A stretch of DNA of 64,000 nt from Notolepis coatsorum (Eukaryota; Chordata; Actinopteri; Aulopiformes; Paralepididae): contig OZ020589.1 of assembly GCA_963971535.1 (NCBI GenBank), positions 93,065,182-93,129,181 on the forward strand, in the 5' to 3' direction. The position numbers and the translations under genes are program-made. Shown piece by piece: positions 27,476-52,943 of the stretch; position 1 is the first letter of the stretch; every line of letters starts with the position of its first letter. The notes beneath the pieces are model-generated. The model was not told the DNA's origin and did no database searches. It worked only from the letters and a program-made list of their open reading frames with translations.

Positions 27476-28019
27476 CACATTAGAGAGAGAAGTAGGACCC
27501 ACCAAGTGTCAGACCATATATGGAAAGTTTGATTGATTGTAACCACGCCCCTTTTTGGAATTTGGATCGTTCTGATTGGTCGAGAGATTTAAGGGGGCGG
27601 GACTTAGGGTAGGTTATTTTGAGATGATTTATGACCCCCTAGGGCTTCTCTGATTGGTCTAGGATGTAAGGAGGCGGGACATCCGGTTTTGAGGGAGGGA
27701 CATCCGGTTTTCGGAAGGGGAGGAGTTTTTTTTATTTAATTTTTTTCAGAAAGTGTGTATTCCCTGGTTTTGCAGAATATGTATTTCCAAAAGTTTTCAG
27801 AATATATCTTCACAATAAAAGTTTTATTTTTTTTTCAAAAAAAAATCCTTCAAAATAAAAGATTCAAATTTTTTTTTTAGATTCAAACGTTTTTTTTATT
27901 TTCAGATTGTATGTATTCCAAGGTTTTCACAATATGTATTTCTGTATTTCCAAAAGTCTTAAGAATATATCTTCACAATTAAGAATATATGTATATCTTC
28001 AGAATAAAATACATTATGT

Positions 28020-28290
28020 GTATTCCAAATGCTAAATGTAAGATACAATGTGTGTTTTCTTCAGAAAATGCATTTATTTCAAATGTGTGTGTGTTTTCTT
28101 AATGCCAAATGCTAAATGTAAAATACAATGTGTGTTTTCTTCAGAAAGTGCATTTATTTCAAATGTGTGTGTGTGTGTTTTCTTAATGCCAAAAGCCAAA
28201 TGTAAAATACAATGTGTGTTTTCTTCAGAAAGTGCATTTATTTCAAATGGTGAGTGTGTATTTCTTAAGAAAGTGCATTTTCTTCCAAGT
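28020..28290 (+). repeat. ~80-bp minisatellite in left inverted repeat
   Basis: Three to four copies of a unit containing GCTAAATGTAAAATACAATG, then TTTTCTTCAGAAAGTGCATT and TATTTCAAATGTGTG. The matching array in the right repeat is at 52040-52335, with different unit order. Confidence 0.85.
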
Positions 28291-29199
28291 GATGTTTGTA
28301 TCTTAAGAATACCCTCTCCCCAAGCTCTGTTTGACTCCACTCTGTAGGCTGTCTCCTCTCTCAAATGTCTCTCAGCAGATTGAAATGAATCGCTGCAGGT
28401 TCTCTGAAAATTCTGATAGTGACAAACCCCGTAGATGTCATAGGAGGCTGGAGAATGACTACGGCCAATGAGATGACTCAAAACCATCTGCCAAAAGCAG
28501 ATTTATGACTCTGCGACTTCCCGTTTCTGTAGACCACACAGTCCCCCCAAGGTGTGTGTATGTGTCTGTGTGTGTTTTCCAAAGTCTTAAGATTTTTTGT
28601 ATTCCAAATTACAAATGTATGTGTCTAATGTGTTTAAGCAAAAGTCTAAATAAATGTAAAATACATTTTTTTTGTATTCCAAATTACAAATGTATGTATG
28701 TCTATATATTAGTTTCTTGGATAAAGACATAATCTTTATACACTTGTGTTTAAGCAAAAAGAAAATTACAAATGTAATTTGTAAAATTAAAAGTGCACCA
28801 TTACATTAGCATGCAAGGGTCTAGGGTTTGAATTCTTTGAATTCTAGATTCTTTAAAAAGGTTGCATTACAGTGTTTTATATTATACACATAAATTATTT
28901 TAGAGTTATTATTAAAAGAGTTGGGCTGAAAATATAAAGTACAGAAAAGACCTATGTGTGTCTGTGAGGCTACGTCTCGGTTCGGGGGTGTGAATAGGGC
29001 CCTCTCTTAGGTGCTAAAACACAGCATGGGAGGCGTGAAGATTAGGGCACATGTAAACTCAACACACATTTACAGTCATCATTCAAATGGTTTATATCTT
29101 TGTAACATGAAAATTAGTGTATACTCATAGCATATTTTTAGTTCACACAATGTGTACATGTTTTCACACATATTTTAAAAGATTTCCCCATAAACATGC

Positions 29200-29312
29200 A
29201 TTATGTCCTAATAAACTAACCTACACTTTGATGAATATTGTTACACCGCTGACAGAGATGTATTATAATTATAATTTGGATAAAAACGTCAACTAATTGA
29301 CTAAATGTAAAT
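29200..29312 (+). mobile_element. L2 3'-tail fragment in left inverted repeat
   Basis: TGTCCTAATAAACTAACCTA, then TTGGATAAAAACGTC and GACTAAATGTAAATG match the L2 3' end seen at 22850-23010. The inverse copy lies at about 50947-51085. Confidence 0.75.
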
Positions 29313-29761
29313 GGTGTAATACCAACTAATTGACAGTTTGGGTGGTGATTCTTATTTTCTTATTTCGTAAGACTAAAATTAAAAGGCTACAGATCATAGA
29401 AAGACTTATGTCTTGTTTACATCAGAGTCCCCCTTTTTTCAATACATCCAGACATTTAGGACATAGCAGATTTACAAATACAACACTGTTTGTGAAAACA
29501 GTCCAGAAAATATATGTCCAAGCTGTTTTAACTGTTTAAATAGGGTATTTCAACCATCTTTAATTAAGACTTATTTTGGATATAGATCACTTCAAAGCCT
29601 GAATGTCCATATACTGTAGCAATGGTAAGCATGCATTTTCAGGTCAACCCCCCTTTTTAGCACGGTTCAGACATCGCCACCCCTCTTTTAATGTCACAGT
29701 AACCTGAAATAGCACAGAGTGTGGGGAAAAGGCCTTATTCAAAATAAAAAACTTTGAAACT

Positions 29762-31060
29762 GTACCCATTCTGCAATCTGTTAATAAACTTTTCAATCAA
29801 TCAATCAATCAATATATGATTAGGTATAAAAGTTAAAGACATGATAGCTTAGAGTTGGGGCGAAAATATAAAGTGCTGTAAATATCTGTCTTTTTGAGGA
29901 TCTGTGTCTCTGTTCGAGGGGGTATGTGTGTAGGGGCCCTGTTATAGGTGTCAAAACGCTGCAAGGGGGTGTGAAAGTTTAGGGACCAAACAACCTCTGT
30001 ATATTTGCTTGTAATACTCTGCATTTTACTCTAAACAAAACTAATAAAGTCTGTATTACAGCTAACTCTTTAAGTTTCAATAGTTTGGATTTAATACATA
30101 ATTCATTGGTATGTTCTCTTAAATCTACATTGTGAACTATTCTTACTGCTCTCTTCTGTAATATAAATAAGGGCTTTATGTTGCTTTCATACGTGTTACC
30201 CCACACTTCCACACAGTAACTCAAATATGGTAGGATGAGTGAACAATATAATATTCGCATAGAATTATAATCAAGCACATTCTTTGCCTTGTTCAAAACA
30301 AAACACTCTTGGCTACCTTATTTTTTATGTACATTATATGTGGCTTCCATGTCATTTTCTCATCCAACATAATCCTTGGATTCCATTGTCAATACATAAT
30401 GCCACATTGTCCTTCTCTCGATTAGTAAATATCATACATATCGTTTTTCCAAATTTAGGGATAGCTTATTGTTATTAAACCATATCTTAAGTTTACACAT
30501 TTCATTTGTAATTTGGAATACAGAAATTTGTATCGACAGCAAATAAAACAAATTGCAATATGTTTGACACTTCACATATATCATTAATATATCAAATAAA
30601 AAGTATGGGCCCCCAGGACCGAACCTTGAGGGTCACCACATTCAATATTCATACATTCAGATGTGTAACCAGAGAGTTGTACATATTGTTGTCTATTTTC
30701 AAGATAGCCACTTAACCAGTTCATCGCCACCCCCGCTCACACCGCATGTTTGTAATTTAGAAATAAAAATGTGATGATCAATCGTATCAAATGCTTTTTT
30801 AAGTCAATAAACACCCCTATTGTGTAATTCCTTTCATCTACGGTTGTGGTTATTTCTTCATATATATTCATTAAGGCTAAGGCTGTTGATCGATTTGCCC
30901 TGAATCCATACCGACTCTCACTCAGAATCTAAGAATCTAAGAATCATGAATCAAGAATCTTGGAAAATTGTGAAAGCAAAGACACTGGTCTGTAGTTGGT
31001 AAAACTGTGTTTGTCCCCAGATTTAAATAGAGGAATAATAATTATTTGAAAAAATTAATA
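29762..31060 (-). pseudogene. LINE reverse-transcriptase fragment in left inverted repeat
   Basis: The minus strand carries the same LINE piece as 49225-50520. The C-terminal frame (30296-29979) reads MNKAKNVLDYNSMRILYCSL, then ILPYLSYCVEVWGNTY. Upstream reverse-transcriptase blocks are present but broken. A CAAT-tail fragment abuts its 3' side at 29762-29818. About 4 of 105 residues differ from the right copy. Confidence 0.8.
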
Positions 31061-33410
31061 GAAATTTCCCACAGGGATAAGGTTTATCTTATCTAAGTGT
31101 GCTAGTGTTTAATAGTGTATAGGGACATAGTGTGTAATAGTGTAATATTGTCATAGGGTAGTCATATAATAGTATGTAATAGTGTTATATAGTATAATAG
31201 TGTGTAATACTGCAATAGTTTAATACATTATTTTGTTTCCTCAAACAGACATGTTCATGTAACTTGCATCAATCCAGTTTTCAGTCGCCTTTTCAGTCAC
31301 CTTTCAGCCAGTTGAAGATTTGTAGCTTGGTCCAGAGTTTTTTTTTACCTACCAGATAATCTGTAGCAGGCTAAATGTGAATAAAACACATTGAAAGCCA
31401 GGTCAAGAGGCTAAAAGTGAGGTTAGGTTTCTTTTTCAGAAACAAATCGTGCTTTTTTTTTCTTTGATTGTCAAGGATAAACATAAATTATAGACATCTA
31501 AAATCATGAAACAGGTCGATTTTTAGTAGATTTAATCAATAGTCAGAAGGATAATGCTATTTTAGTCAAGGGTTGAGATATATCACCCCCATGACACATC
31601 CCTATTTTGTAAGACAACCAGTTTGATGTTGTAATTTCAGTGATTAGGCTCGTTTGCCTGTATACATTTTTATCAATCTGCTTTTGGTGTATTTTTTAGG
31701 TGTTTGGTTATGTTTTTATCTGTCATTTTGATCAGGTCTAGCTAAAAGAGGGGATTTATGATCTCAAATGACTAAGGTTTACCAATTGTCATGCATGAAT
31801 TTCAACTCTAACGTGTTACATAAGTAAAACAAACTATTTGCAAACACCATTGTTCTAAACAGTGTATCTACTATAGACAGTGTGTATTTATATTTTAGCT
31901 AAATGTAAAAAACATGAGAACACAATCCTAGTGAATTCTGAATTTGATGTTTATTGGTTGAATGTCAAGGATAAACATAAATTATAAACATCTAAAACCA
32001 TGAAACTGACTGATGCACTTAAAACAGACATGTCAACATTTTTTTTACCTGTTTGCATAATGATAAGGTATAAAAACAAAATGCTTCAATACAAATGTAT
32101 TTTTTAGAAGTTTAGTAATATCAAGCCCCAAATGTATTTTCTTTAACCTGATCTAAGCTACATTATACAACTCATTTATGAATTACTTTGCAACGTCTAG
32201 TTTTTTTTAGCCCCCCAGAGTTTTATGCTCTCAATATTATGGATATGCATTAAATCCTACACACAATAGGAAATATTCAATCAACTCAAAGATGATGGTT
32301 CTAAGGTATATAAAATGTAATTCACTCATCATAGTTAGTGTATAGTATGGCTAACATGTATGAAAGTTGTTGATACAATATTATAATTCATAATTATGCA
32401 GAAAAAAGCTAAATACAGAGTATTACCGGCGAGGTTGTTTGATTTTTGTCCTGATGATTGAAGGAAATTCATTTTAAGAACTATTTAGCATGAAACATCT
32501 TAATACAAAGATGTATTATAACCATGAAAATAATGCAATGTTAGGTTTTACCATGATTTTAGTGTTCACAGATAGGAATGTATCATTCACATTCTATTAT
32601 CCAAATGTACTCTGAACAGACTTGTGAAGTTAGAGATAGGAATGTATTATTCACATTCAATTATCCAAATGTACTCTGTTTGAGTCAAATTTACTCTGTG
32701 AAATGTACTCTGCGAAATGTACTCTGCGAAAGTTCCCTGCAGTATGCAGGGTTTTACATAGACTACTAGCAAAAACAATTCATATTGTTTCAGTGTTGGC
32801 CTGGTTGATAGCTACATTGTCGACATATCTTATTTTTTATTCTTATTTCATTGTATAGTGAATCCAGGGGTATAGTGGAGCGATTATATTTTGTTTTTAT
32901 AATATTTTATAATATCAAAACATGTCTTATGTTCTTATATATCTATAAGCCAGAATGATGTAAAAAGAGTCCTACTAATATATTTCACTTAAAAAACGTG
33001 TACAGAAAGATAAATATCCGACTCCTGCTATGGGAATTACACCTTTTTCTATACATAGCAAATGTGTTGGTATGCTTTATTGTAACCGTTTGACTGTTTG
33101 ACTGTTTTTAGTGCAACACTACTGTCACCAACATCTAAGAAGGGTCTAGGGTTATCTCCTCAACAGTAGGTCTGAGGTGCATTTAAGTCCTATTGATAGG
33201 TTTTTCGATACCTTTGCAAGGATATGTATGACTGTGCAGCATTAATTTATTTTAAATTTGGCAGACTTTATGGTATTTTATGTTTTATTTATGATTGTGA
33301 TACTTCTTATTGAATTGTTTAAAGAATATGTGTTTAACCCAAGGGGTGATTAATGTATTGTAGGACCTTACAAATATGATTTGATCCCAACAAGTGGTGA
33401 CATTTCGAAG

Positions 33411-34689
33411 TGTGGTAGATTTTAACATAGATCATTCTAATGGGAGTTCAAATTAAACTAATGTGTAGAAACAGTCGAAGTGGAACACTTGGCCCTCAAA
33501 CTATAGTTCATAGATTGTGTGTGTGTTTACAGAGACTGATTGACATTGTGGCCACACAGAGGTCGATTTACATATAGAGTGAGTGGTCAAATAATTCTAT
33601 TTACGACAGGAACCTGAGGGCCATCTGCCAGGCCAAGGAAGAGCTTAAGACAATGGCTCTGTCGATCGGAACAAAGGACCAATAGGTCACATAAACATGT
33701 TATCTCGCTGGAGTCTCCTGTGACACACACTTAGAGACAGAAGTCTGAGGAGGAAAGTTTAAGCTCCACTATTGCTGTAACTAAATGTATGTTTAAATCC
33801 TTAATTTAAGGTCCAAACAAGCTGTAGCTATTTCCTGGTATATTGTACTTGTAATCTTGAATTCTGAAGCCATATTAAACTGTGTAAAATCAGATGATGT
33901 AAGTTAAAATATAAATAGAATAGGCTTATTTACATTGGGGTAAGAATTCTGAGGTAGTTAGTTTTCACTTAAAGTGAAAATAAGTCACTATGATAAGAAA
34001 TGTGTTCAAGGATAATATCTCTGTGTTTAGGTGATCAATTACAATTCAAATATATATGTTATGAAATCAATAATGCAATGTATGAAAGTAGATTGTTAGA
34101 TTAAATGAAACAAATGAAAGTATATTTGACTGTGTAAGGACCGCCTCCGTTTGCATTCAAACATAGAGAGGCGGTGATTGGACAAACCACAGCTTATGAT
34201 GTCATCACAACGAGACCCTGCGCCTTGAGATAAAATGAGATGTTGTGATGGGAAGAGACACTCTTGAAACCCAACTCACAGGACAACACCTCTTACCACC
34301 GATCCACACTCAAGGCGGGCAGGTCAGCAGAAGAACAAAGGACATCGCTTTTGGAGGGAAAACTGAACTATACTTTGATCCCTAGCCAAGGGAACAAAGC
34401 CATCATCAACTATCATTCTTCATCTACTATAAATATTAGTCTGGTTGTTATCAAGACGGCATAGGGTCTTTGATCACAATTATAGCATTCGTTATTGTAA
34501 TTTGTATACAACTCTTAACTTTGATTAAACAGCTGTTGTTATAACCTTTTCCTCCTGAATTCCTTCTGCCTGCACCGCTGAGAAGATATAAGTAATTCCC
34601 AGAGCTTTAGAGTTATTGAAACAACGCAGAGTACTAACCACCCGGTTCTGATACAGAGCAGAACCGTAATAGCTTGGGAATCCACTTCA
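33411..34689 (+). repeat. 5' LTR of copy B
   Basis: 1279 bp, beginning TGTGGTAGATTTTAAC and ending GGGAATCCACTTCA. It has a TATA-like GATAAAATGAG at about 34229 and a polyadenylation-type ATTAAA at about 34523. It differs from the 3' LTR at about seven positions (for example ATGGCTCTG against ATGGGCTTTG near 33655). Confidence 0.92.
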
Positions 34690-34692
34690 TTT

Positions 34693-34706
34693 TGGTGTCG
34701 CGACCC
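34693..34706 (+). other. primer-binding site of copy B
   Basis: TGGTGTCGCGACCC begins 3 bp after the LTR. Its TGG start would pair with a tRNA CCA end. It is related to but distinct from the copy A site. The tRNA was not assigned. Confidence 0.6.
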
Positions 34707-34812
34707 ATGAACAAGCGGCGGCCCAGGACGAGAAATTATTTTTTTCCTTCACTCATCGACCTCATCAGCGGTCGACGGAGGACACGCTGCGGGAGCTTCG
34801 TTCCTGAGAGAG

Positions 34813-37800
34813 GTGAGTGTTGGAAGGAGAATGGGCTGTTCTGTTCGAACAACAAGGGGTTGGGAAAAGCAATTGCTTCATGTGAAATTATGTGAAGTAA
34901 TTAAAAGACCTCATGTTATTGTAATATGATGACGTATTGGAGGCACAGGCTATCTGATTATTGGCAATGGTATTAGCGTCGCATGACGGCAGATGAAAGG
35001 CTTTTCTGGCTAGGAAGCACGGTAAATCTGGTGTGTGCGACAGGGGCGCGTTCTGAGTATATAAAATCCCTAGAATTATTCTCAGGAAGAGGGCGCGGTA
35101 ATGATTGATGATTTGGTGGTTCTGAATGGGGAGAGAGCTGTGTATAAGATGGGCTCTGTTGCTATTTAGAACAGTCAAATCAGGTATGGTAAAGATGCGT
35201 GGGAACCTTTCATGATCAGGGAACTTGGTTTGTGCGATTACAGGGATAACACGTAGTAATTAATAGAAGGTAGGGGTGCCGGCGTGTTCAAGAGGCTCAA
35301 TAATAGAATGGTTTGCTGGCTGATCGCGTGATAGTCAGGACGTGTCTGCAGGGACCTATTCGGCCGAATTAAATGAAGATGTGTGTTCGTCCTTAGGCAT
35401 GCAATCGAATTGGGTCCGGAGATCCCTTTTTAATCTTGAGCGAAACCGGCGTGTTGATTGAATTACGTGCGCTGTGATACGAAAACATTGTGCTTAAAAA
35501 CAATTCGGTCGAGATGACTGATAAGTACTTAGTGGGAATTCGATTACGAAGCTGTGGTAAGCTTAAACATTCAGTATAAAAGTGTGTGCGATTACGTTTG
35601 ATCTCGTGTTTACTAGTCGCGCTGCTGTGCGACGTTCGAGAGACGATAATATGTGCGTGAATGGAGGTTTGTATTTTTTATTTGTAGTTAGGAAGCGTGT
35701 ATGGATGAATGGTTGGAGAATGGCTATGGTTAGGTATGATTGGTGGTACGTGTGAGAGTATTGTTGTATTATTATGTGATTTAAGTCACCGGTTAGCCGT
35801 GGGGAAATGTAATGATAACGCCGGTTTTTCGGGGCCCGTGGAACGCAGCAGCAGTTAGCTACTGTATTAGCCTCTGAGGCGACCGGAGGATGCGGCGGAC
35901 AAATAGGTGTAGGTTCAAATGTATAAGGTCGATCGATAGTGTCTTGGGATTACGGGGATGTGTTAGGCACTTAAAAATTTTCATATTCGTGGCGGATAAA
36001 ATAGTTGTATAATGTTTTAGGTGAACGGGATAGTATGTTGCGGGGACCCGGAAGTCGTTCTGAGCTCGCCGGTGGTGACGACAGAGGGGTCAAACTAGTG
36101 TTTTGTGGCGGCCTGTAGGCTGTTATGTTTTTAAATTTCTGTTTAGATCGCTACACTGACGTTTTGAGGGGATTAGGATTCTGTTGTGGGGAATGTGGTG
36201 TTATATTAACATTGCGAGGAGACGGCCCGCGCGGCGAAACGGGTCGATGGGTCGTTGGGGAACGTTTTTATGGGATCATGGGAGAAGCTAAGCTAATGCT
36301 ACCTAGCCGCGCTAACGGCTAAAGCGGTCGCTGGTTGTGACGTCATAAGGGTGCGCGGTCTGGCGGCCTGCGACGGAGCTAACGAAGCTAATATGCTAAG
36401 CTAACTGTGCTGACGTCATGGCATGACGGGGCTCTCGGGATGTCTCGCGATGGGACGTCCATCTTAGTGGGGGCGCCGGCGTCCATCTTGGGTGGGGCAC
36501 CAAGCGTCCGTTGTTAAGGGGAAGGTGGAGTTTATTTAGGAAAACGGTAGGGGGCGGAAGAGGACAGGATGAGTATTTTTGGGTTCTGCTCACAGAACGT
36601 TTTCATTAGGGGGTTAGTGTACTGGTAAAGTGAGATTAGATTGTTGTGCTTTAATCTGGTGGTGGATTGTGGGGCCTTGGCCCCCCCTCCCCCTTGTACG
36701 CTCTCTCTCACACACACCCCCCCCCTCTCTCTCTCTCTTTCTTTCTCTCTTTCCTTCTCTCACCCCCCCTCTCCCTCTCTCTCTTTCCTTCTCTCACCCC
36801 CCCTCCCCCTCTCTCTTTCTTTCCTTCTTTCACCCCCCCCCCCCTCTCTTTCTTTCCTTCTCTCACCCACCCTCCCCCTCTCTCTCTCTCTTTCCTTCTC
36901 TCACCCCCCCCCTCTCTCTCTCTCTTTCTTTCTCTCTTTCCTTCTCTCTCTTTCCTTCTCTCACCCCCCCCCTCTCCCTCTCTCTCTTTCCTTCTCTCAC
37001 CCCCTCTCCCCCTCTCTCTCTCTCACCCCCTCCCTCTCTTTCTTTCCTTCTTTCACCCCCCCCCCCCTCTCTTTCTTTCCTTCTCTCACCCACCCTCCCC
37101 CTCTCTCTCTCTCTTTCCTTCTCTCACCCCCCCCTCTCCCTCTCTCTCTTTCCTTCTCTCACCCCCCCCCCTCTCTCTCTCTCTCACCCCCTCCCTCTCT
37201 CTTTCACCCCCCCCTCTCTTTCTTTCCTTCTCTCACCCCCCCCTCTCTCTCTCTCTTGCTCCTTCCTCTCTCTCTCACTCTCTCTCTCTTCCCTCTCTCT
37301 CCCTTTTGCCTCCCCCCTCTCTCTCTCTCTCTCACCCCCCCTCTCTCTCTCTCTCCTCCCCCTCTCTCCCTCTCGCCTCCCCCCTCTCTCCCTCTCCCTC
37401 TCACCTCCTCCCCTCTCTCTCTCTCTTATCCCCCCCTCTCGCTCTCTCCCTCTCGCTCACTCCCTCCCCCTCACTCCCCTCATGGGTATGGGCACAGACT
37501 ATGTTGTGATGTGGTGTGGTATGAACGAGGGCTCTCGTTCCCACACCGCCTCTCTTCCATATTTTTTTCCCCCCTCGGCCCCCCCGAAACGCTCTCTCTT
37601 TCTCTCCTAGTTTGGGCCTGTATATAAATGTGGTTTTCTTTATGGGTTTCAAACGCGGTGTAGTGCTAGGTTTATTGTTTATTGCTGTTTACTGTAGGGT
37701 TCAAAGGCAGTTGGTTGAGTTTGGGACTTATTTAGTGTATGTTGTTGTTCCATATTCAGTTTTATTGTTATTTTTAGGGAATTTGTAGTGCTGGTAGTGG

Positions 37801-40706: not shown

Positions 40707-42896
40707 AAATATATGCAACTGACTAGGGTAAAGGTGGGATATATTGAATAATAGAAAATGCTCCTAATTAGATTAGAATAAAAATAGAATAAAAAATAAA
40801 TAGAGGGGTTAGGTGATTAGATTATGAATGGAAGTTACTAAAAACGGATGTATGAGTGACTGACAAATGCATGAACTAATCAGACTAACAAGAAAATCAA
40901 ATGATGTTAAACAGTTAATATTGACACTGCGGAAGCTAGTGGTCAGTGAATTATCCATGCTTGGTCAATATTCAGATTGGTCAAAGGGTGGAGTGCATGA
41001 ATAGGAGATTAAAAAGACCCATAGTTGTTTCTAGTTTTTTATAGTATTGATAGATGTGTATTAACAGTTATGAGCAATAGATATAGGTGTTTATTTACTT
41101 TTATTTTTATTCATTTGATTTCCCTTTTTGTTTCTTAGTTAATACGGGGGTGTATAAGCCTCTAGATGATAGGTTAAAAATGAGCTCAAAGTAAAAAGAA
41201 AAAGCTCACAAGTTTGGATTATTTTTTCATTTATTGGTTTGGCATGGTTTTTCTTTGTATGTTTTGTTTTCTGTTTCCTTTCTTTCTATATATTTTTTTC
41301 TTAGGGTACCTGGCAAGCTGGGAGTGATCTCGACACATCAGGACTGGGTAGTATATGTCTGTAAAATGGACTGGGAACAAAGTGGATGGACATGAGCTGG
41401 TTCATGGATTTTTGTTCTCCGCCCATTGAACACCCGGTTTTAGGGGCTGGGGGTGTGTCGTGATTGGTGAAAGTGTTGGGAAGCATGATTCTCTGTACAT
41501 TAATAAAGCTCAATAGGTTTGGTCGCTATTGGCCAAATTAGTCTTTGTGTAGGGTGTGAACATGTGCAATTGATGATTGGCTTGTGGGGGACTCCGTGGG
41601 CTTGATGAAGGCTGGCGGAGAGTGTGGAAGATGTGTGTTTAAGGCGGACTGTGATTTGTTGCCATACACACAGGATTACTGGGAGAGTGGATGTGTCAGT
41701 GCTGACCGTCCGGGCCGGGGTGCAGCTGTCCAAAGGACGAAGGTAACGATGTTTGAATGTATATTCCACATCGAAGGGTTATGACAGCATAATATAATGA
41801 GAGCCATGTGAATTTTTCAGAATTTTGAAAATTAATGATCTAGAAGCCATGAAATATATAGATAAATGATTTGGAAAAGAAAGTTGTCAAAACTCAGACC
41901 AGTAAAGAGAGTCTGAGGGAGGAAAAGTATGGATCCTCAATCAATTGTTGTGGTAGAAGTGACCTGCACTGTCCCGAAACGAAATCTATATTCACTGCAG
42001 GATACAAATGGGAGACTGGGGAACCAGACACTGGCTAGTGTCTACCCAGGTTCCATGGGGAACCACAACACTGCGGGTACCAAGAGAACCAGGAGAAGCC
42101 TACCTCTCAGGCCGGGAGAGTTCCGGCCAACGCAGTGACCGGGTCTTGAGGCTTCAGAGGGAAACGACAGGCAACCAACGAGGAGACAGGCGGCTAGGCC
42201 TCAGCAACAACTCCGGCTGTCAACAGACGCAAGGCCTTAACCATTGACCAGGGGGTCTACAAGGGAAAGGGGGGAGCTGCTATCGCCCCTATAATCCAAG
42301 GGTCAACAGGGGTTGAGCAGCCAGCGACGACCTCCCCACCGCTGTGACAGCAATAGAAAAATACAGCAGGGGGTTCTACCCCCTAATAGAGGTCAACACG
42401 AGTCAAGATGTTCTCGACAGAAGATGGGGTGTGATAAGAAAGGCAATTTGCTTTCTAAATTCCACCTCCCAGAATGGGGGGTCGCATCCAGCAGTCGTGA
42501 ACTGCACCAGCTCTGAGAAATAAAGAAAAGGCCGGGTCAATCTAGAAAACATTGACCCCCCTCCTCACTGCTCCAAGTCAGAATTTGACAACTCACAGTT
42601 GAAACCAATGGAAATTGATCTTGGTACGAAAACAGGTTGTTAAAGACTGTACACGGGATCACAAAAACTGAAACTGCTAATAACGGTGTTATATTGAATT
42701 TATAATTATACATAAGAAAGAGATATAGAAAACGAATGTTAGGTTGAATTTTAGGATCTGAGTGTGGCAAACCATATGTATTTTATCCCAGTATGATTTA
42801 AAAATTTCTTAAATTCTTATCCAGAAAGTAGTGTGTAGAAATTAGGATCTATGTTTAAACATAATTAAGGATAGATAAACTATCCGAGTGTGGAAA
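40707..42896 (+). other. 3' internal region of copy B, no recognisable pol or env
   Basis: AT-rich to 41500, then mixed. Short frames at 41929-42138 (MDPQSIVVVEVTC) and around 42313 have no family match by eye. No YxDD, DTG/DSG or integrase HHCC pattern was seen. A strong purine run GGGAAAGGGGGGAGC lies near 42263-42277. The stretch 42100-42680 matches 59953-60700 in copy C, including CATTGACCCCCCT and AAGTCAGAATTTGACA, so it is a conserved family segment. Confidence 0.6.
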
Positions 42897-44176
42897 TGTG
42901 GTAGATTTTAACATAGCTCATTCTAATGGGAGTTCAAATTAAACTAATGTGTAGAAACAGTCGAAGTGGAACACTTGGCCCTCAAACTATAGTTCATAGA
43001 TTGTGTGTGTGTTTACAGAGACTGATTGACATTGTGGCCACACAGAGGTCGATTTACATATAGAGTGAGTGGTCAAATAATTCTATTTACGACAGGAACC
43101 TGAGGGCCATCTGCCAGGCCAAGGAAGAGCTTAAGACAATGGGCTTTGTCGATCGGAACAAAGGACCAATAGGTCACATAAACATGTTATCTCGCTGGAG
43201 TCTCCTGTGACACACACTTAGAGACAGAAGTCTGAGGAGGAAAGTTTAAGCTCCACTATTGCTGTAACTAAATCTATGTTTAAATCCTTAATTTAAGCTC
43301 CAAACAAGCTGTAGCTATTTCCTGGTATATTGTACTTGTAATCTTGAATTCTGAAGCCATATTAAACTGTGTAAAATCAGATGATGTAAGTTAAAATATA
43401 AATAGAATAGGCTTATTTACATTGGGGTAAGAATTCTGAGGTAGTTAGTTTTCACTTAAAGTGAAAATAAGTCACTATGATAAGAAATGTGTTCAAGGAT
43501 AATATCTCTGTGTTTAGGTGATCAATTACAATTCAAATATATATGTTATGAAATCAATAATGCAATGTATGAAAGTAGATTGTTAGATTAAATGAAACAA
43601 ATGAAAGTATATTTGACTGTGTAAGGACCGCCTCCATTTGCATTCAAACATAGAGAGGCGGTGATTGGACAAACCACAGCTTATGATGTCATCACAACGA
43701 GACCCTGCGCCTTGAGATAAAATGAGATGTTGTGATGGGAAGAGACACTCTGGAAACCCAACTCACAGGACAACACCTCTTACCACCGATCCACACTCAA
43801 GGCGGGCAGGTCAGCAGAAGAACAAAGGACATCGCTTTTGGAGGGAAAACTGAACTATACTTTGATCCCTAGCCAAGGGAACAAAGCCATCATCAACTAT
43901 CATTCTTCATCTACTATAAATATTAGTCTGGTTGTTATCAAGACGGCATAGGGTCTTTGATCACAATTATAGCATTCGTTATTGTAATTTGTATACAACT
44001 CTTAACTTTGATTAAACAGCTGTTGTTATAACCTTTTCCTCCTGAATTCCTTCTGCCTGCACCGCTGAGAAGATATAAGTAATTCCCAGAGCTTTAGAGT
44101 TATTGAAACAACGCAGAGTACTAACCACCCGGTTCTGATACAGAGCAGAACCGTAATAGCTTGGGAATCCACTTCA
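42897..44176 (+). repeat. 3' LTR of copy B
   Basis: 1280 bp, the near-identical partner of 33411-34689. It is preceded by GAGTGTGGAAA, a weak polypurine-like run also found before the LTR of copy C (AAGTGTGGAA). Confidence 0.92.
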
Positions 44177-44331
44177 GAAGTCTTAAAGGGATCACATTCA
44201 CATAGCTGAATATAGTTGCACAACTGGATAATATTTGTATTATTACTAGGATGAACTTAAAATCATTCAAAACAATTATTACATAACAATTATTACAATG
44301 AAACGCAGATGGGTATATTATAAAATATTTA

Positions 44332-44793
44332 TTAAAGAATATTACAAATCATGCTGCAACCTTTTTTATCAATAATATAAGCGTGCATAACATCAATAAT
44401 GTGATTAATATCTAAAGTTTCTAAACACTTATGATTTTTCAGCTTAAAAGCCGTAACATCCACTATTACTGTGTATAAACATAACAGGTGTGCTCTGTTA
44501 AAATGACCATTCATATGATCTAAAATAGTAACTAAGCTGTTTTCAGATAGAAGACTTTCATCCTCTGAGAGTGTCTCTATCATATATTGCCAATTATTTA
44601 ACAAGCCTTTCTCTCTCACCAGCTTCAACATATTTTCAAAAAGCCTTAAGCGCAGGCTATTGACATTCCCGGTTACAGTGTACAAGTGGGCATCGTTGAC
44701 TTTATTAGCTATAGCATGCTTTAAAAGCAATGCGATATCATAGTTTATAGAGGTCGTAATACAGCTGGTAGTCCTACTGAAGAAATTCCCCAT
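44332..44793 (-). CDS. Bcl-2-like protein (possible viral-type apoptosis inhibitor)
   Basis: 153 aa, starting MGNFFSRTT, an N-myristoylation-type start. The N-terminal ~51 codons lie in the unique core and the rest in the inverted repeat. The C-terminal half resembles the Bcl-2/E1B-19K core. HFNRAHLLCLYTVIVDV could be the BH1/alpha-5 segment (NR in place of NWGR). IIDVMHAYIIDKKGC could be alpha-6 with BH2 (W-I-x-[DE]-x-G-G-W pattern, with Y and C in place of both Trp). No C-terminal membrane anchor is seen. Bcl-2 homologues occur as accessory genes in many animal DNA viruses. An AATAAA lies just after the stop on its strand. The family call is by pattern only; it could be another all-helical protein. 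Confidence 0.45.
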   Translation of the reverse strand: MGNFFSRTTSCITTSINYDIALLLKHAIANKVNDAHLYTVTGNVNSLRLRLFENMLKLVREKGLLNNWQYMIETLSEDESLLSENSLVTILDHMNGHFNRAHLLCLYTVIVDVTAFKLKNHKCLETLDINHIIDVMHAYIIDKKGCSMICNIL

Positions 44794-44963
44794 TTCCTAT
44801 GCTACGATCCCGATACTTTAAACAACAGGTGATATAGGGTGTGTATTTCTGTATGGGGGTGGGGATGAACCTGCGGACGGGTCTGTATGACGCTATAGAT
44901 GTGTAGGATAGAAACCTATATATTTAGAGAGTTCCCTCTTAGAGAGACCCTAAAAAAAATAAA
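44794..44963. promoter_or_regulatory. divergent promoter region between two core genes
   Basis: 170 bp between oppositely facing starts. On the plus strand a TATA-like CTATATATTTAGAG lies at about 44918, about 45 bp before the ATG, followed by AGAGTTCCCTCTTAGAGAGA. A G-rich stretch (GTATGGGGGTGGGGATG) lies in the middle. Promoter use is inferred. Confidence 0.4.
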
Positions 44964-45569
44964 ATGGCGAGCAGTCTAGCTACATCTACTATACGCACGT
45001 CAGCCCTAGTAGCGCATTTTAAGGCAGAGTTACTTGCACCATCCAAATTTGGTAGCGTGTTTTATAAAGAGATATGGCCCCTCAGGGATGGGGTCCTCGG
45101 ATTCTGTTATGATGTTAAATTTGAGAGAGTTGTCTTCTACAAGACCTCCTTGGAAAATTTCCAGGGTGTTGGAAGAAGATCTGAGATAGACCTATCGGAG
45201 ACGGAATTTTGGAAAATGAAAAAAGATTCATATGAGGCTATGGATGGATTAGTGGGTAGAACGCTTAAGGACGGGCATATATTCACCCTGGTAATAAGCT
45301 CAATAGACTACGGGTATGTGTATTACGGGCGGATATCTATAAAAAGTACTCTGGCTTTTGGTGTAGAGACTAATCTAACCATCTTCTCAAGGTTCCTTAA
45401 TACAAGTCATGAGTATATCCTCTTCTCAGTACCGGTAACGGCCTGGTTAGAATGTCTACGGACTTGCGGATTGGTTACTAACGCAGGGGTTAAGGTGAGG
45501 ACAGACCTGGTTCATTTAAAAAGACGTCTATTCCCATACACCGAATCAGAGGAGATGGAGTGCGATTGA
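44964..45569 (+). CDS. uncharacterised 201-aa protein of the Polinton-like core
   Basis: The start MASSLATSTIRTSALVAHF fits an ATG in good context (AAAATGGCG), about 45 bp after a TATA-like box. It looks globular, with mixed charge and several beta-like stretches (FTLVISSIDYGYVYYGRISI, TNLTIFSRFL, EYILFSVPV) and an acidic end ESEEMECD. There is no signal peptide, membrane segment or metal motif. It ends 92 bp before the next gene on the same strand, which has its own TTTAAAAAG upstream. I do not recognise the family. The clean frame in an element full of dead sequence suggests a real, recently functional gene. Confidence 0.7.
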   Translation: MASSLATSTIRTSALVAHFKAELLAPSKFGSVFYKEIWPLRDGVLGFCYDVKFERVVFYKTSLENFQGVGRRSEIDLSETEFWKMKKDSYEAMDGLVGRTLKDGHIFTLVISSIDYGYVYYGRISIKSTLAFGVETNLTIFSRFLNTSHEYILFSVPVTAWLECLRTCGLVTNAGVKVRTDLVHLKRRLFPYTESEEMECD

Positions 45570-45660
45570 CCCTCATCGAAGGGGCGGAGGATGGGGCGTG
45601 TCAACCCTAAATCCTCCTTTAAAAAGACTTACAGTGCATTTGTAGTTTTAGATAGCAATC

Positions 45661-46464
45661 ATGACTTTCCCCCCACAAGATCTCTACACTGACTCCACAT
45701 ATGGGTTGGAGTCGGTAGAACCCTGCTCTCCGCTACCGTACATTCCTCTAACCTCTACTACATCGCCGGGGGTACAGATACCTGCCTGTCTATACGATAC
45801 CCCCACCCCCGAAGCACCAGACCTGTCATCACAGGAGACCATCGTCGACCCCCTCGATGCAGAGGCCGTTTACACACCCCTACTTAGCCCCTGGCGATCA
45901 CACACACCGGAGTTGGGGTACCCAGAAGAAATACCAATCGTTGAGGCGGCCATGAAATCACCCTCGCCATCGAGAAGGCTTACATTACTACCTGTAATGG
46001 TTGATGAGAGATCTGGGTTCATGGACTATCTAATGATAGGTAGTATTAAATTCGTTTTGGCCGAAATACTGAAGTCTTGTATCGTTCGACATCTAAACGA
46101 GCACTGTTACGGCTGTAGCATACAACATCCCAGTCAGAGGCACCATGAATGTCTGTTTGAAGCATCCCTGTATTACGGGATCAATGAAGCGGCATTGTTG
46201 TCATTGCTATGGAGTGGTCAGCTGATACCGACAATATCAGCCCTTTTGGGGCGTATGAGCTTATCCATCCCATCACCGTTACGCCTGCAGGGGATCTGCG
46301 AGGGGTTGCTTTACGAGTTCCGAACAGTTAAGAATAGTGAATGTCTGAAAGAAATGATTAAGGATATTCAAGAAGATTCCCCCGAGATCAACGCTGACGC
46401 AGTCTACGGATATGTAGTTAAATTCATGTCCACATTGCCGAAATTGGCAAAAGTGTATCCCTGA
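45661..46464 (+). CDS. 267-aa protein with Cys/His HPSQ motif
   Basis: The N-terminal ~120 residues are rich in Pro, Ser, Thr and acidic residues (TSTTSPGVQIP, DTPTPEAPDLSS), probably disordered and possibly an activation-type region. The folded part from about residue 115 holds HCYGCSIQHPSQRHHECLF, that is C-x2-C-x3-HPSQ-x2-H-x-C, a plausible zinc site. It is followed by helices (YYGINEAALLSLLWSGQLI, YGYVVKFMSTLPKLAKV). I believe similar HPSQ proteins occur among fish virus-like element genes, but cannot name the family. AATAAA follows at about 46488. The right inverted repeat starts 37 bp after the stop. A regulator role is speculative. Confidence 0.65.
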   Translation: MTFPPQDLYTDSTYGLESVEPCSPLPYIPLTSTTSPGVQIPACLYDTPTPEAPDLSSQETIVDPLDAEAVYTPLLSPWRSHTPELGYPEEIPIVEAAMKSPSPSRRLTLLPVMVDERSGFMDYLMIGSIKFVLAEILKSCIVRHLNEHCYGCSIQHPSQRHHECLFEASLYYGINEAALLSLLWSGQLIPTISALLGRMSLSIPSPLRLQGICEGLLYEFRTVKNSECLKEMIKDIQEDSPEINADAVYGYVVKFMSTLPKLAKVYP

Positions 46465-46511
46465 TAGATGTTTGTTTATTTCTGAAAAAATAAAATGGTG
46501 TTTTTGAAAAT

Positions 46512-46811
46512 ATGTTGAAGCTGGTGAGAGAGAAAGGCTTGTTAAATAATTGGCAATATATGATAGAGACACTCTCAGAGGATGAAAGTCTTCTATCTGA
46601 AAACAGCTTAGTTACTATTTTAGATCATATGAATGGTCATTTTAACAGAGCACACCTGTTGTGTTTATACACCGTAATAGTGGATGTTACGGCTTTTAAG
46701 CTGAAAAATCATAAGTGTTTAGAAACTTTAGATATTAATCACATTATTGATGTTATGCACGCTTATATTATTGATAAAAAAGGTTGCAGCATGATTTGTA
46801 ATATTCTTTAA
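46512..46811 (+). pseudogene. second, N-terminally truncated copy of the Bcl-2-like gene
   Basis: It encodes 99 residues from MLKLVREKGLLNNW to the stop, identical in protein to the C-terminal 99 residues of the gene at 44332-44793. It lies inside the right inverted repeat, which begins at 46501. The first ~51 residues are missing and replaced by the tail of the HPSQ gene region. It could be translated from its own ATG but lacks an obvious promoter. AATAAA follows the stop at 46811. Confidence 0.7.
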
Positions 46812-49224
46812 TAAATATTTTATAATATACCCATCTGTGTTTCATTGTAATAATTATTATGTAATAATTGTTTTGAATGATTTTAAGTTCATCCTAGTAA
46901 TAATACAAATATTATCCAGTTGTGCAACTATATTCAGCTATGTGAATGTGATCCCTTAAAGACTTCGAAATGTCACCAGTTGTTGGGATCAAATTATATT
47001 TGTAAGGTCCTACTATACTCTGGTTAAACACATATTCTTTAAACAATTCAATAAGAAGTATCACAATCATAAATAAAACATAAAATACCATAAAGTCTGC
47101 CAAATTTAAAATAAATTAATGCTGCACAGTCATACATATCCTTGCAAAGGTATGGAAAAACCTATCAATAGGACTTAAATGCACCTCAGACCTACTGTTG
47201 AGGAGATAACCCTAGACCCTTCTTAGATGTTGGTGACAGTAGTGTTGCACTAAAAACAGTCAAACAGTTACAATAAAGCATACCAACACATTTGCTATGT
47301 ATAGAAAAAGGTGTAATTCCCATAGCAGGAGTCGGATATTTATCTTTCTGTACACGTTTTTTAAGTGAAATATATTAGTAGGACTATTTTTACATCATTC
47401 TGACTTATAGATATATAAGAACATAAGACATGTTTTGATATTATAAAATATTATAAAAACAAAATATAATCGCTCCACTATACCCCTGGATTCACTATAC
47501 AATGAAATAAGAATAAAAAGTAAGACATGTCGACAATGTAGCCATCAACCAGGCCATCACTGAAACAATATGAATTGTTTTTGCTACACCTTACATTTCG
47601 CAGAGTACATTTCACAGAGTAAATTTGACTCAAACAGAGTACATTTGGATAATTGAATGTGAATGATATATTCCTATCTGTGAACACTATAATCAGGGTA
47701 AAACCTAACATTGCATTATTTTCATGGTTATAATGAATAAAAATACATCTTTGTATTAAGATATTTCATGCTAAATAGTTCTTAAAATGAATTTCCTTCA
47801 ATCATCGGGGACAAAAATCAAACAACCTCGCAAATACTCTGTATTTAGCTTTTTTTTCTGCATAATTATGAATTATAATATTGTATCAACAACTTTCATA
47901 CATGTTAGCCATACTATACACTAACTATGTTGAGTGAATTACATTTTATTTACCTTAGAACCATCATCTTTGTGTTGATTGAATATTTCATGCTGTGTGT
48001 AGGATTTAATGCATATCCATAATATTGAGAGCATAAAACTCTGGGGGGCTAAAAAAAACTAGACGTTGCAAAGTAATTCATAAATGAGTTGTATAATGTA
48101 GCTTAGATCAGGTTAAAGAAAATACATTTGGGGCTTGATATTACTAAACTTCTAAAAAAAAAAATTGTATTGAAGCATTTTGTTTTAATACCTTAGCATT
48201 ATGCAAACAGGTAAAAAAAACTATGTTGACATGTCTGTTTTAAGTGCATCAGTCAGTTTCATGGTTTTAGATGTTTATAATTTATGTTTATCCTTGACAT
48301 TCAACCAATAAACATCAAATTCAGAATTCACTAGGATTGTGTTCTCATGTTTTTTACATTTAGCTAAAATATAAATACACACTGTCTATAGTAGATACAC
48401 TGTTTAGAACAATGGTGTTTGCAAATAGTTTGTTTTACTTATGTAACACGTTAGAGTTGAAATTCATGCATGACAATTGGTAAACCTTAGTCATTTGAGA
48501 TCATAAATCCCCTCTTTTAGCTAGACCTGATCAAAATGACAGATAAAAACATAACCAAACACCTAAAAAATACACCAAAAGCAGATTGATAAAAATGTAT
48601 ACAGGCAAACGAGCCTAATCACTGAAATTACAACATCAAACTGGTTGTCTTACAAAATAGGGATGTGTCATGGGGGTGATATATCTCAACCCTTGACTAA
48701 AATAGCATTATCCTTCTGACTATTGATTAAATCTACTAAAAATCGACCTGTTTCATGATTTTAGATGTCTATAATTTATGTTTATCCTTGACAATCAAAG
48801 AAAAAAAGCATGATTTGTTTCTGAAAAAGAAACCTAACCTCACTTTTAGCCTCTTGACCTGGCTTTCAATGTGTTTTAATCACATTTAGCCTGCTACAGA
48901 TTATCTGGTATAGGTAAAAAAAAAAACTCTGGACCAGGCTACAAATCTTCAACACAGTTGGCTGAAAGGTGACTGAAAAGGTGACTGAAAACTGGATTGA
49001 TGCAAGTTACATGAACATGTCTGTTTGAGGAAATAAAATAATGTATTAAACTATTGCAGTATTACACACTATTACACTATTGCATGATTACACATTTGCA
49101 TAATATTACACTATATAACACTATTACATACTATTATATGACTACCCTATGACAATATTACACTATTACACACTATGTCCCTATACACTATTAAACAGTA
49201 GCACACTTAGATAAGATAAACCTT

Positions 49225-50520
49225 ATCCCTGTGGGAAAATTCTATTAATTTTTTCAAATAATTATTATTCCTCTATTTAAATCTGGGGACAAAGACAGTT
49301 TTACCAACTACAGACCATTGTCTTTGTTTTCACAATTTTCCAAGATTCTTGATTCATGATTCTTAGATTCTTAGATTCTGAGTGAGAGTCAGTATGGATT
49401 CAGGGCAAATCGATCTACAGCCTTAGCCTTAATGAATATATATGAAGAAATAACCACAACCGTAGATGAAAGGAATTACACAATAGGGGTGTTTATTGAC
49501 TTAAAAAAGCATTTGATACGATTGATCATCACGTTTTAATTTCTAAATTACAAACATGCGGTGTGAGCGGGGTTGGCGATGAACTGGTTAAGTGGCTATC
49601 TTGAAAATAGACAACAATATGTACAACTCTCTGGTTACACATCTGAATGTATGAATATTGAATGTGGTGACCCTCAAGGTTCGGTCCTGGGGCCCAAACT
49701 TTTTATTTTATATATTAATGATATATGTGAAGTGTCAAACATATTGCAATTTGTTTTATTTGCTGTCGATACAAATTTCTGTATTCCAAATTACAAATGA
49801 AATGTGTAAACTTAAGATATGGTTTAATAACAATAAGCTATCCCTAAATTTGGAAAAACAAAATGTATGATATTTACTAATCGAGAGAAGGACAATGTGG
49901 CATTATGTATTGACAAAGGAATCCAAGGATTATGTTGGATGAGAAAATGACATGGAAACCTCATATAATGTACATAAAAAATAAGGTAGCCAAGAGTGTT
50001 TTGTTTTGAACAAGGCAAAGAATGTGCTTGATTATAATTCTATGCGAATATTATATTGTTCACTCATCCTACCATATTTGAGTTACTGTGTGGAAGTGTG
50101 GGGTAACACGTATGAAAGCAACATAAAGCCCTTATTTATATTACAGAAGAGAGCAGTAAGAATAGTTCACAATGTAGATTCAAGAGAACATACCAACGAT
50201 TTATGTATTAAATCTAAACTATTGAAACTTAAAGAGTTAGCTGTAATACAGACTTTATTAGTTTTGTTTAGAGTAAAATGCAGAGTATTACAAGCAAATA
50301 TACAGAGGTTGTTTGTTCCCTAAACTTTCACACCTCCTTGCAGCGTTTTGACACCTAACAGGCCCCCTGTTCACACCCTGATCCTCAAAAAGACAGATAT
50401 TTACAGCACTTTATATTTTCGCCCCCAACTCTAAGCTATCATGTCTTTAACTTTTATACCTAATCATATATTGATTGATTGATTGAAAAGTTTATTAACA
50501 GATTGCAGAATGGGTACAGT
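49225..50520 (+). pseudogene. LINE reverse-transcriptase fragment in right inverted repeat
   Basis: Translated blocks in order are YRPLSLFSQFSKIL, YGFRANRSTALALMN, GVFIDLKK (then a frameshift before the expected AFDTIDHH), NWLSGYLENRQQYV and GDPQGSVLGPKLFILYIND. The catalytic box reads FAVD in place of FADD. The C-terminal LILPYLSYCVEVWGNTY block follows. It is a Jockey/CR1-type non-LTR reverse transcriptase with stops, a frameshift and a lost catalytic Asp, so it is dead. An ATTG tail fragment lies at 50465-50520. Confidence 0.8.
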
Positions 50521-50946
50521 TTCAAAGTTATTTATTTTGAATAAGGCCTTTTCCCCCGACACTCTGTGCTATTTCAGGGTACTGTGACATTAAATGGGGG
50601 TTAGATGTGCATGTTGGTAAGGGAAGTTGACCTAAAATGCAGGCTTACCATTGCTACAGTGTATGGACATTCAGGCCTTGAAGTGATCTATATCCAAAAT
50701 AAGTCTTAATTAAAGATGGTTGAAACAGTTAAAACAGCTTGGACTGATAGACCCTTACAAGTTATCACAAACAGTGTTGTATTTGTAATCTGGTATGTCC
50801 TAAATGTCTGGATGTAACATAAATGTCTATCTGTATGTAAACAAGACACAAGTCTTTCTATGGTATGTAGCCTTTTAATTTTAGTTTTAGTCTTACGAAA
50901 TAAGAAAATAAGAATCACCAGCCAAACTGTCAAATAGTTGGTATTA

Positions 50947-51085
50947 CTTTTACATTTAGTCAATTAGTTGACGTTTTTATCCAAATTATAATTATAATGC
51001 ATCTCTGTCAGAGGTGTAACAATATTCATCAAAGTGTTGTATGTTATAGTGTAGGTTAGTTTATTAGGACAATAGCCTGTTTATG
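50947..51085 (-). mobile_element. L2 3'-tail fragment in right inverted repeat
   Basis: Inverse counterpart of the L2 tail at 29200-29312, slightly longer because of small indels. Confidence 0.7.
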
Positions 51086-52039
51086 GGGAAATCTTTTAAA
51101 ATATGTGTGAAAACATGTGAACATTGTGTGAACTAAAAATATGCTATGAGTATAATGTTGTACATTACTTGTACATGTTACAAAGATATAAACCATTTGT
51201 ATGATGACTGTAAATGTGTGTTGAGTTTACATGTCCCCTAATCTTCACGCCTCCCATGCTGTGTTTTAGCACCTAAGAGGGGCCCTATTCACCCCCCCGA
51301 ACCGAGACACACACCTCACAGACACATAGATCTTTTCTGTACTTTATATTTTCAGCCCAACTCTTTAATAATAACTCAAAAATAATGAATGTGTATAATA
51401 TAAAACACTGTAATGCAACCTTTTTAAATAATCTAGAATTCAAAGAATTCAAACCCTAGACCCTTGCATGCTAATGTAATGGTGCACTTTTAATTTTACA
51501 AATTACATTTGTAATTTTCTTTTTGCTTAAACACGAGTGTATAAAGATTATGTCTTTATCCAAGAAACTAATATATAGACATACATACATTTGTAATTTG
51601 GAATACAAAAAAAATGTATTTTACATTTATTTAGACTTTTGCTTAAACACATTAGACACATACATTTGTAATTTGGAATACAATTATCTAAAGATTGTGA
51701 CATTTGACATCTGGCATTAAGAAAACACACAGGCACACACACACCTTGGGGGCCGTTTTTTCTACAGAAACGGGAAGTCGCAGAGTCATAAATTTGCTTT
51801 TGGCAGATGGTTTTGAGTCATCTTATTGGCCCTAGTCAATCTCCAGCCTCCTATGACATCTACAGGGTTTGTCACTATCAGAATTTTCAGAGAACCTGCA
51901 GCTTTTCATTTCAATCTGCTGAGAGACATTTGAGAGAACACACAGCCTACAGCAAACAGACAGAGAGAGGGTATTTCTTAAGATACAAACATCACTTGGA
52001 AGAAAATGCACTTTCTTAAGAAATACACACTCACCATTT

Positions 52040-52335
52040 GAAATAAATGCACTTTCTGAAGAAAACACACATTGTATTTTACATTTGGCTTTTGGCATTA
52101 AGAAAACACTCACCATTTGAAATAAATGCACTTTCTACTCACAAACACACTAAATGTATTTTAAATTTGGCTTTTGGCATTAAGAAAACACACACACATT
52201 TGAAATAAATGCACTTTCTGAAGAAAACACACATTGTATTTTACATTTAGCATTTGATATTAAGAAAACACACACACATTTGAAATAAATGCACTTTCTG
52301 AAGAAAACACACATTGTATTTTACATTTAGCATTT
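52040..52335 (-). repeat. ~80-bp minisatellite in right inverted repeat
   Basis: Reverse-orientation counterpart of the array at 28020-28290, with an extra variant containing CTACTCACAAACACACTAAA. Confidence 0.85.
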
Positions 52336-52943
52336 GGAATACACATAATGTATTTTATTCTGAAGATATACATATATTCTTAATTGTGAAGATATATTCT
52401 GAAAACTTTTGGAAATACAGAAATACATATTGTGAAAACCATGGAATACATACAATCTGAAAATAAAAAAAACGTTTGAATCTAAAAAAAAAATTTGAAT
52501 CTTTTATTTTGAAGGACTTTTTTTTTTTTGAAAAAAATTAATAAAAAACTTTTATTTTGAAAACCGGATGTCCCTCCCTCAAAACCGGATGTCCCGCCTC
52601 CTTACATCCTAGACCAATCAGAGAAGCCCTAGGGGGTCATAAATCATCTCAAAATAACCTACCCTAAGTCCCGCCCCCTTAAACCTCTCGACCAATCAGA
52701 ACGCGTGGCTACAAAAAAGGGGCGTGGCTACAATCAATCAAACTTTCCATATATGGTCTGACACTTGGTGGGTCCTACTTCTCTCTCTCACATTAAGCCT
52801 TTAGCATAAAAAGGAATAGGAATACATTTGCACCCACTGATGTGTGGCATGTAAAATCAAGATATGTAGATACATAAGCTTTCTAATTGACATTTGTCTA
52901 GTGTTTTTCTTTTCCTAAATCAAACTGACTTTTCAGGGATATT

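Follow-up and report, generated by a model that had tools for sequence, protein, structure and literature searches.

A palindromic Maverick relative in the genome of Notolepis coatsorum is probably an old member of a helper-dependent satellite family

A stretch of 64,000 nucleotides from the fish Notolepis coatsorum (assembly GCA_963971535.1, contig OZ020589.1, positions 93,065,182 to 93,129,181 of the forward strand; "the window" below is this whole stretch) contains, at positions 27482-52788, an element that has the ends of a Maverick (or Polinton) and long inverted arms. We put a probability of about three in four on the reading that this element is an old member of a family of palindromic, non-autonomous Maverick satellites, which depend on a helper and are maintained by copying from arm to arm. 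These satellites do not carry the genes for copying and moving and, judging from shared ends, appear to borrow them from complete Mavericks. Across the family, the ends are those of complete elements in the same genome, and dispersed copies carry target site duplications of their own. No palindromic or non-autonomous Maverick was recognised in the open-access literature searched.

Structure of the element

The element is flanked by an exact 6-bp target site duplication (TSD), CACATT, at 27476-27481 and 52789-52794 (both read directly, + strand); its left end reads AGAGAGAGAAGTAGG and its right end CCTACTTCTCTCTCT. Inverted-repeat pairs and arm distances place the outer part of the left arm from 27482 to approximately 33406-33411 (+) and the innermost 466 bp of this arm at 44177-44642 (+), which form a 99% inverted-repeat pair with 46501-46966; the right arm occupies 46501-52788 (-), and the unique core of 1,858 bp between the innermost arms (44643-46500) is the cargo slot. 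The arms are about 6.3 kb long and their paired kilobases are mostly 92-100% complementary; in the outer block, 192 of 5,577 aligned sites differ (3.44%), in addition to 44 indels. The left arm is interrupted by a long terminal repeat (LTR) retrotransposon; once this is subtracted, the element measures approximately 14.54 kb. A first-pass annotation had described the AG-starting ends, the duplication, the span, the arms and the core correctly, and had also proposed a relation to Mavericks/Polintons, with which both the ends and the 6-bp duplication agree; the (AG)n//(CT)n end motif reported for vertebrate Mavericks (PMC8097293; this and all other papers are cited from excerpts) is present.

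Copies across the genome

Other copies with the same ends, which the first-pass annotation had suggested looking for, were found when the 3.42-Gb genome was searched with the terminal 361 bp and 40 of 1,160 first-look candidates were scored. End matches identified at least 28 loci, of which 10 are palindromic (class A), 17 have the interior of a Maverick (class B) and one could not be assigned (L036); 16 ends were classed from 1.5-kb pieces only, and ten two-ended elements were fetched as halves. Two-ended class A copies are C7:113.18M, C27:71.78M and C21:85.46M, with arms of approximately 6.4 kb, and C35:55.19M, with arms of 6.33 kb, flank included. Two-ended class B copies are C6:90.34M, C21:12.02M, C23:41.82M, C13:69.48M and C27:115.07M, with terminal inverted repeats (TIRs) of 1.05-1.13 kb; a further class B copy, C8:185.15M, was fetched in part, and its right end stands outside the duplication count. 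The C35 copy (L023/L024) has lost ORF1 and ORF2, two genes of the core, and carries an extra tRNA-Glu near its centre; it may be the product of a chromosomal fold-back or of an assembly fault.

Searches with core proteins point to a larger family. ORF1 gave at least 150 matches (header 151; 543 candidates), some of them partial, and ORF3 gave at least 150 (750 candidates) on 22 contigs; stops interrupt 14 of the 150 listed ORF1 matches and 2 of the 150 listed ORF3 matches, counted from listings that favour the best copies. Of the 150 listed ORF1 matches, 70 are accompanied by a listed ORF3 no more than 3.5 kb away on the other strand, at an offset of 625-839 bp in 65 of these 70; of the 150 listed ORF3 matches, 76 are more than 20 kb from any listed ORF1. 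Allowing for several listings per locus, the family comprises at least about 200 related loci. Clustered ORF1 pairs or ORF3 copies at C24:52452747/52453900, C8:121167608/121168778 and C35:92488732-92498260 may represent nested or double-core palindromes.

Exact 6-bp TSDs were found in 10 of the 11 elements of both classes for which two ends were read (the window element, C6, C7, C27:71.78, C21:12.02, C23, C13, C21:85.46, C27:115.07 and C8:41.15M, the last with CATGTC), the exception being C35. These data bear on whether the palindromes arose in place, by chromosomal inverted duplication or by recurrent gene conversion between arms at fixed loci, with no mobility. Palindromes are capable of gene conversion, and the inverted flank of C35 is what a fold-back event might leave. 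Exact duplications around the window element and 9 of 10 other two-ended copies, the 150 or more ORF3 copies on 22 contigs, and the unconverted arms of the one old copy read argue against an origin in place, which we consider hardly credible. The possibility that the first-pass annotation had named as fatal to its own proposal, a segmental inversion without mobile relatives, is contradicted in the same way: dispersed copies carry their own 6-bp duplications.

Relation to complete Mavericks

Five complete Mavericks measured in this genome are 15.52-16.74 kb long. In the C23 copy, Pfam searches identified a DNA polymerase B (DNA_pol_B_2, PF03175, 8.9e-39), an rve integrase (PF00665, 7.6e-12) and an adenovirus-type endoprotease (Peptidase_C5, PF00770, 2.5e-7); an ATPase-like protein had a best match of 9.9e-5, below the Pfam cut-off, and a 435-aa open reading frame (ORF) at the capsid position, with no match in Pfam or PDB, is labelled capsid by position only. 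The PolB reading frame runs uninterrupted for approximately 1,400 aa in four of six copies and is broken in C13 and C8. Between TIR and integrase, the complete elements carry two accessory genes, the one adjacent to the TIR being a homologue of ORF1 (43% aa identity) and the other a homologue of ORF2 (55%) of the window element. None of nine core Maverick proteins gave a tblastn match (E 1e-3) in the window element or in four other palindromes; each of the nine matched four or five of five other complete copies at 89-100%. Among eleven class B proteins tested, both accessory ones match the window, while only the ORF1 homologue matches in C7, C27 and C21:85.46 and neither matches in C35. Conversely, a search of two class B copies for ORF3 found nothing. 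The proposal that the element keeps only accessory genes is supported for the window copy in that it lacks the nine core proteins tested and retains homologues of two accessory genes. The associated view of a defective genome fixed in a chromosome stands as far as the loss of core genes is concerned, but not as a single relic, since the element belongs to a large mobile family.

Full-length relatives with polB and integrase, which the first-pass annotation had likewise suggested looking for, do occur, but not between the same arms: blastn pieces above 200 bp between class B and the window cover the outermost few hundred bp only, and class B TIRs measure approximately 1.1 kb. The shared segments are the left terminal segment with its AGAGAG end (27482-27826, +; approximately 90-93% to class B ends) and the right terminal segment (52559-52788, -; 93-94% to the C6 ends). 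With accessory genes at 43% and 55% aa identity, the window element is too divergent to have arisen recently by deletion from the complete elements sampled, an origin that is common among non-autonomous derivatives but not required of them. Synonymous sites of ORF1 are saturated between palindromes and complete elements; for ORF2, dS is about 2 and dN/dS is 0.11-0.15.

A comparison of 24 ends from 13 copies (6 class A, 7 class B) detected no segregation of ends by class. Over 330 bp, 12 of the 13 copies have their closest match in the opposite class, as do 11 when the comparison is limited to the first 100 columns; distances are 0.0687 between classes versus 0.0722 within, and the observed difference is reached in 14,885 of 20,000 shuffles of the class labels. 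C27:71.78M (A) and C21:12.02M (B) have zero differences over the first 100 columns, and C21:85.46M (A) differs from C13 (B) by 1.6% and C7 (A) from C6 (B) by 3.0%. The combination of diverged cargo with several such near-identical A/B pairs of ends is most simply explained by exchange of ends or by a shared pool of them.

Agreement between the two arms

Within the palindromes C7, C27, C21:85.46 and C35, the two arms differ at 11 of 5,885, 1 of 5,871, 3 of 5,818 and 1 of 5,924 sites, respectively (0.02-0.19%), versus differences of 1.33-2.52% and 27-53 indels between these same four copies. Both arms agree in all four copies at 197 of 212 ungapped variable columns, and, per pair of copies, the differences common to both arms amount to 74-140 substitutions plus 27-55 gap runs. 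Concordance at 197 of 212 variable sites indicates that the arms have been re-copied from each other. In the window element, 165 sites differ between the arms and, at 101 sites, both arms differ alike from all young arms, a pattern which reads as a concerted phase followed by independent decay.

Two further explanations are to be weighed against these numbers. An inert defective genome, formed by chance, amplified passively once and now a decaying fossil, would owe the identity of its arms to youth, and the window copy itself is indeed old and interrupted. Youth alone cannot yield the substitutions and gap runs that both arms have in common, and shared ends and exchange of cassettes (see below) require repeated replication; we thus regard this explanation as very improbable. 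The other is an assembly artefact from hairpin or strand-switch reads, which could be suspected from the very high arm identity within young copies and from the odd C35 copy. Such an artefact would not be expected to leave window arms that differ by 3.4% and by indels; in addition, the inverted match begins at the element end and stays out of the flanks in 8 of 10 pairs (C35 runs on, and C8:185M is an incomplete fetch), and no N occurs in the ten loci checked. We accordingly give an artefact next to no credence.

tRNA-Glu genes in the arms

In each of the four young palindromes, an intact tRNA-Glu(TTC) gene is present in both arms (L011:5650-5721, L013:5673-5744, L021:5634-5705 and L023:5675-5746, plus mirror copies); no difference was seen among the nine copies of the gene that were read. 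Rfam scores nine tRNA genes in L011, L013, L021, L023, L024 and L056-L058 at 58.3-59.7 bits (cut-off 29), and ARAGORN finds one tRNA in L032. The gene is preceded by ATGCAAAT, which we take to be an octamer, and followed by a T run. No tRNA was found in the ten class B halves scanned, which represent five complete copies, nor in L039, L043, L045, L048 and L049, pieces that stop short of the place of the tRNA in the arm.

In the window (27000-53200), Rfam at gathering cut-offs gave zero matches. Sequence comparison finds a 3' remnant of 18 nt in each arm of the window element (33019-33036, +; 47317-47334, -), with the 5' part of the gene deleted at the same breakpoint. For this matching deletion, arm-to-arm copying fits the remaining data better than recurrence.

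Cargo genes and their exchange

The cargo slot holds ORF1 (201 aa, 44964-45569, +), ORF2 (267 aa, 45661-46464, +) and part of ORF3 (153 aa, 44332-44793, -), which extends across the border between arm and core and the C-terminal part of which is repeated in the right arm (46501-46811, +). None of the three proteins has a Pfam match or a convincing PDB match by sequence or profile. ORF2, which contains the motif CYGCSIQHPSQRxHECLF, found no credible relative among 5.8 billion proteins, and none was found in IMG/VR, where PolB matched one fragment at 30%. Weak matches of a cargo protein to apolipoprotein A-IV (E 0.14, 0.88) and to SEC13 (E 0.16, 1.7) were dropped. A Bcl-2-like ORF3 and a PC4-like ORF1, suspected from motifs, gave single-sequence AlphaFold2 pLDDT values of 41 and 31 and are not claimed.

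A survey of eleven further cores (L048-L058) separates three types of ORF1 by aa identity to the window: type I (82-100%; the window and others), type II (65-68%; L048, L049) and type III (48-50%; L056, which is truncated, L057, L058). With regard to the second gene, the window type of ORF2 is present in L049, L052 and L053, a proline-rich ORF replaces it in C7, C27, C21:85.46, L048, L050, L051, L054, L055, L057 and L058, and L056 has neither. In L051:2-1126, the proline-rich ORF2 and, behind it, the copy of ORF3 in the arm read through as one open frame of 375 aa.

In 100-bp blocks, ORF1 types I and III are 60-82% alike within the gene and 88-100% alike on both sides; the two forms of ORF2 show approximately chance identity within the gene, and in the comparison with the window the sequence ahead of it is 91-100% alike and that behind it 97-98%. 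Borders this sharp are found for ORF1 types I/III and for ORF2 only, the flanks of the type II cores L048 and L049 being diverged or unalignable. By these alignments, ORF1 and ORF2 are exchangeable types within a conserved backbone, and recombination would account both for the ends shared with complete elements and for the swaps of cargo between palindromes. Across such distances the frames of the cargo ORFs are mostly still open; dN/dS for ORF1 is 0.29 for the pair of window and C27, comparisons that involve L048-L051 yield 0.40-0.93, and full copies of ORF3 give 0.15-0.77.

Cargo is also where the satellite reading has to be separated from that of a bipartite Maverick, in which the palindrome would be not a parasite but a stable second segment that benefits the complete element by supplying ORF3, alternative ORF1/ORF2 and tRNA-Glu. 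Consistent with this are the common ends, the similar lengths (14.39-14.52 kb in three palindromes, 15.52-16.74 kb in five complete elements), the small number of stops among the listed matches, the failure of searches to find ORF3 in two complete copies or the tRNA in five, although palindromes carry both, and the bidnavirus precedent of VD1 and VD2, which have terminal sequence in common and are packaged apart (PMC4938981). However, the complete element has its own ORF1/ORF2 homologues and its own core genes, and hence no obvious need of a partner; cargo types differ among palindromes; and the listings are biased to best-matching, hence intact, copies, some of the matches being partial. We consider a bipartite Maverick unlikely, if less so than the explanations weighed above.

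Later insertions and neighbouring sequence

The insertion in the left arm, absent from the right arm, is a 10.77-kb LTR retrotransposon at 33407-44176, with borders known to a few bp. Its LTRs (33407-34689 and 42893-44176; 1,284 bp) are 99.4% identical and it includes a zinc-knuckle ORF (39510-40706); it is a young insertion. That it sits in one arm, together with the 3.4% difference between the arms, shows that homogenisation has not persisted in the chromosomal copy in the window. Mirror-image fragments of 105 aa from the ORF list lie in the left (29979-30296, -) and right (50006-50323, +) arms and are presumably LINE-like; a relative of this fragment in L011 had zero Pfam matches. To the left of the element lie tandem arrays at 23071-25941 (16-bp unit, approximately 197 copies) and 19356-20828 (68-bp unit, approximately 22 copies).

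Discussion

The helper-dependent satellite that we favour would be an element of approximately 14.4-14.5 kb, consisting mostly of non-coding mirror arms around a slot of about 1.9 kb with two or three small genes. Complete Mavericks would supply a protein-primed polymerase and integrase in trans, by way of the shared AGAGAG ends. During replication outside the chromosome, the displaced strand could fold into a panhandle, in which one arm would serve as the template for the other, and integration with a 6-bp duplication would follow; repair of adeno-associated virus inverted terminal repeats by a panhandle (PMC11575299) provides a model for such rewriting, and a panhandle has been proposed for bidnavirus termini (PMC4938981). 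The window copy would then be an old insertion in which homogenising stopped and into one arm of which the LTR retrotransposon later inserted.

Several observations weigh against this reading or limit it. The ends of the window element differ from those of the nearest sampled complete copy by 9.6% over 100 columns and by 10.6% over 330 bp, and the ends of C8:41.15M are likewise distant from sampled copies (10.9%). Saturation of synonymous sites in ORF1 implies that the complete family seen here is not a recent parent, and the helper might be an unsampled Maverick family. Values of dN/dS for ORF1 of up to 0.93 between some types indicate that selection is weak or diversifying. In C35, the inverted repeat extends 228 bp into the flank, the duplication is missing and the centre is rearranged. 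The breakpoint of the tRNA deletion joins two CGAC repeats, so independent recurrence in the second arm is conceivable, as is chromosomal gene conversion in the younger copies, the decayed state having been read at length in one copy. Finally, mobilisation in trans and an extrachromosomal form are what we infer from sequence comparisons, and packaging is speculative.

Among known systems, vertebrate Mavericks/Polintons are the closest in having (AG)3-type ends, 6-bp duplications, accessory genes outside the core modules and a similar length, but the TIRs of intact ones span 46-1,447 bp and enclose 7-8 conserved genes (PMC8097293), whereas the window element has none of nine core proteins and arms that, at about 6.3 kb, fall outside the range for autonomous elements. 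Bidnaviruses are alike in comprising two non-homologous molecules, VD1 and VD2, with common termini, PolB on one only, and a panhandle rather than a hairpin, and unlike in being exogenous viruses with a two-part single-stranded DNA genome (PMC4938981); here the elements are integrated and the complete one looks self-sufficient. Transpovirons are small linear elements with few genes that are tied to a larger virus and exchange genes in its mobilome, yet they are apparently linear mimivirus plasmids and not integrated palindromes with 6-bp duplications (PMC3671162). The Polinton-like viruses of cryptophytes show that relatives of Mavericks may carry tRNAs, but they are protist elements with gene sets of their own, and the excerpted account describes no palindromic form (PMC12220804). 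Teratorn is a fish element with long inverted repeats, but is a piggyBac-herpesvirus fusion of 41-182 kb with unrelated genes (PMC6431247). Long, variable inverted arms are also typical of transposons of the Galileo/Foldback type. Unlike the window element, with its Maverick ends, these belong to the P superfamily (PMC4168063).

Length suggests a further step. Palindromes (14.39-14.52 kb, n=3) and complete elements (15.52-16.74 kb, n=5) are close in size, though few copies were measured; vertebrate Mavericks vary by about 10% around approximately 17 kb, which suggests a constrained genome size, and Maverick virions were unobserved as of the same source (PMC8097293). One may speculate that the arms serve as packaging filler. 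A tentative extension, possible rather than probable, is a living, virus-like system with two components in a vertebrate genome: the complete Mavericks and, beside them, a palindromic satellite (or second segment) of long standing, which would share and exchange ends with them, rewrite its arms during replication, swap allelic cargo genes, carry its own tRNA-Glu and use its non-coding arms as filler to fit the capsid of the helper.

Conclusions

By analogy, the satellite looks like the genomic counterpart of a satellite virus. Exchangeable ORF1/ORF2 cassettes hint, speculatively, at a function in specificity or conflict. Ends that track those of complete elements, together with a similar length in an element that is mostly non-coding, point indirectly to replication of Mavericks outside the chromosome and perhaps to packaging of their DNA by size, and mirrored arms, which log arm-to-arm copying site by site, would make the mode of replication testable from sequence alone.

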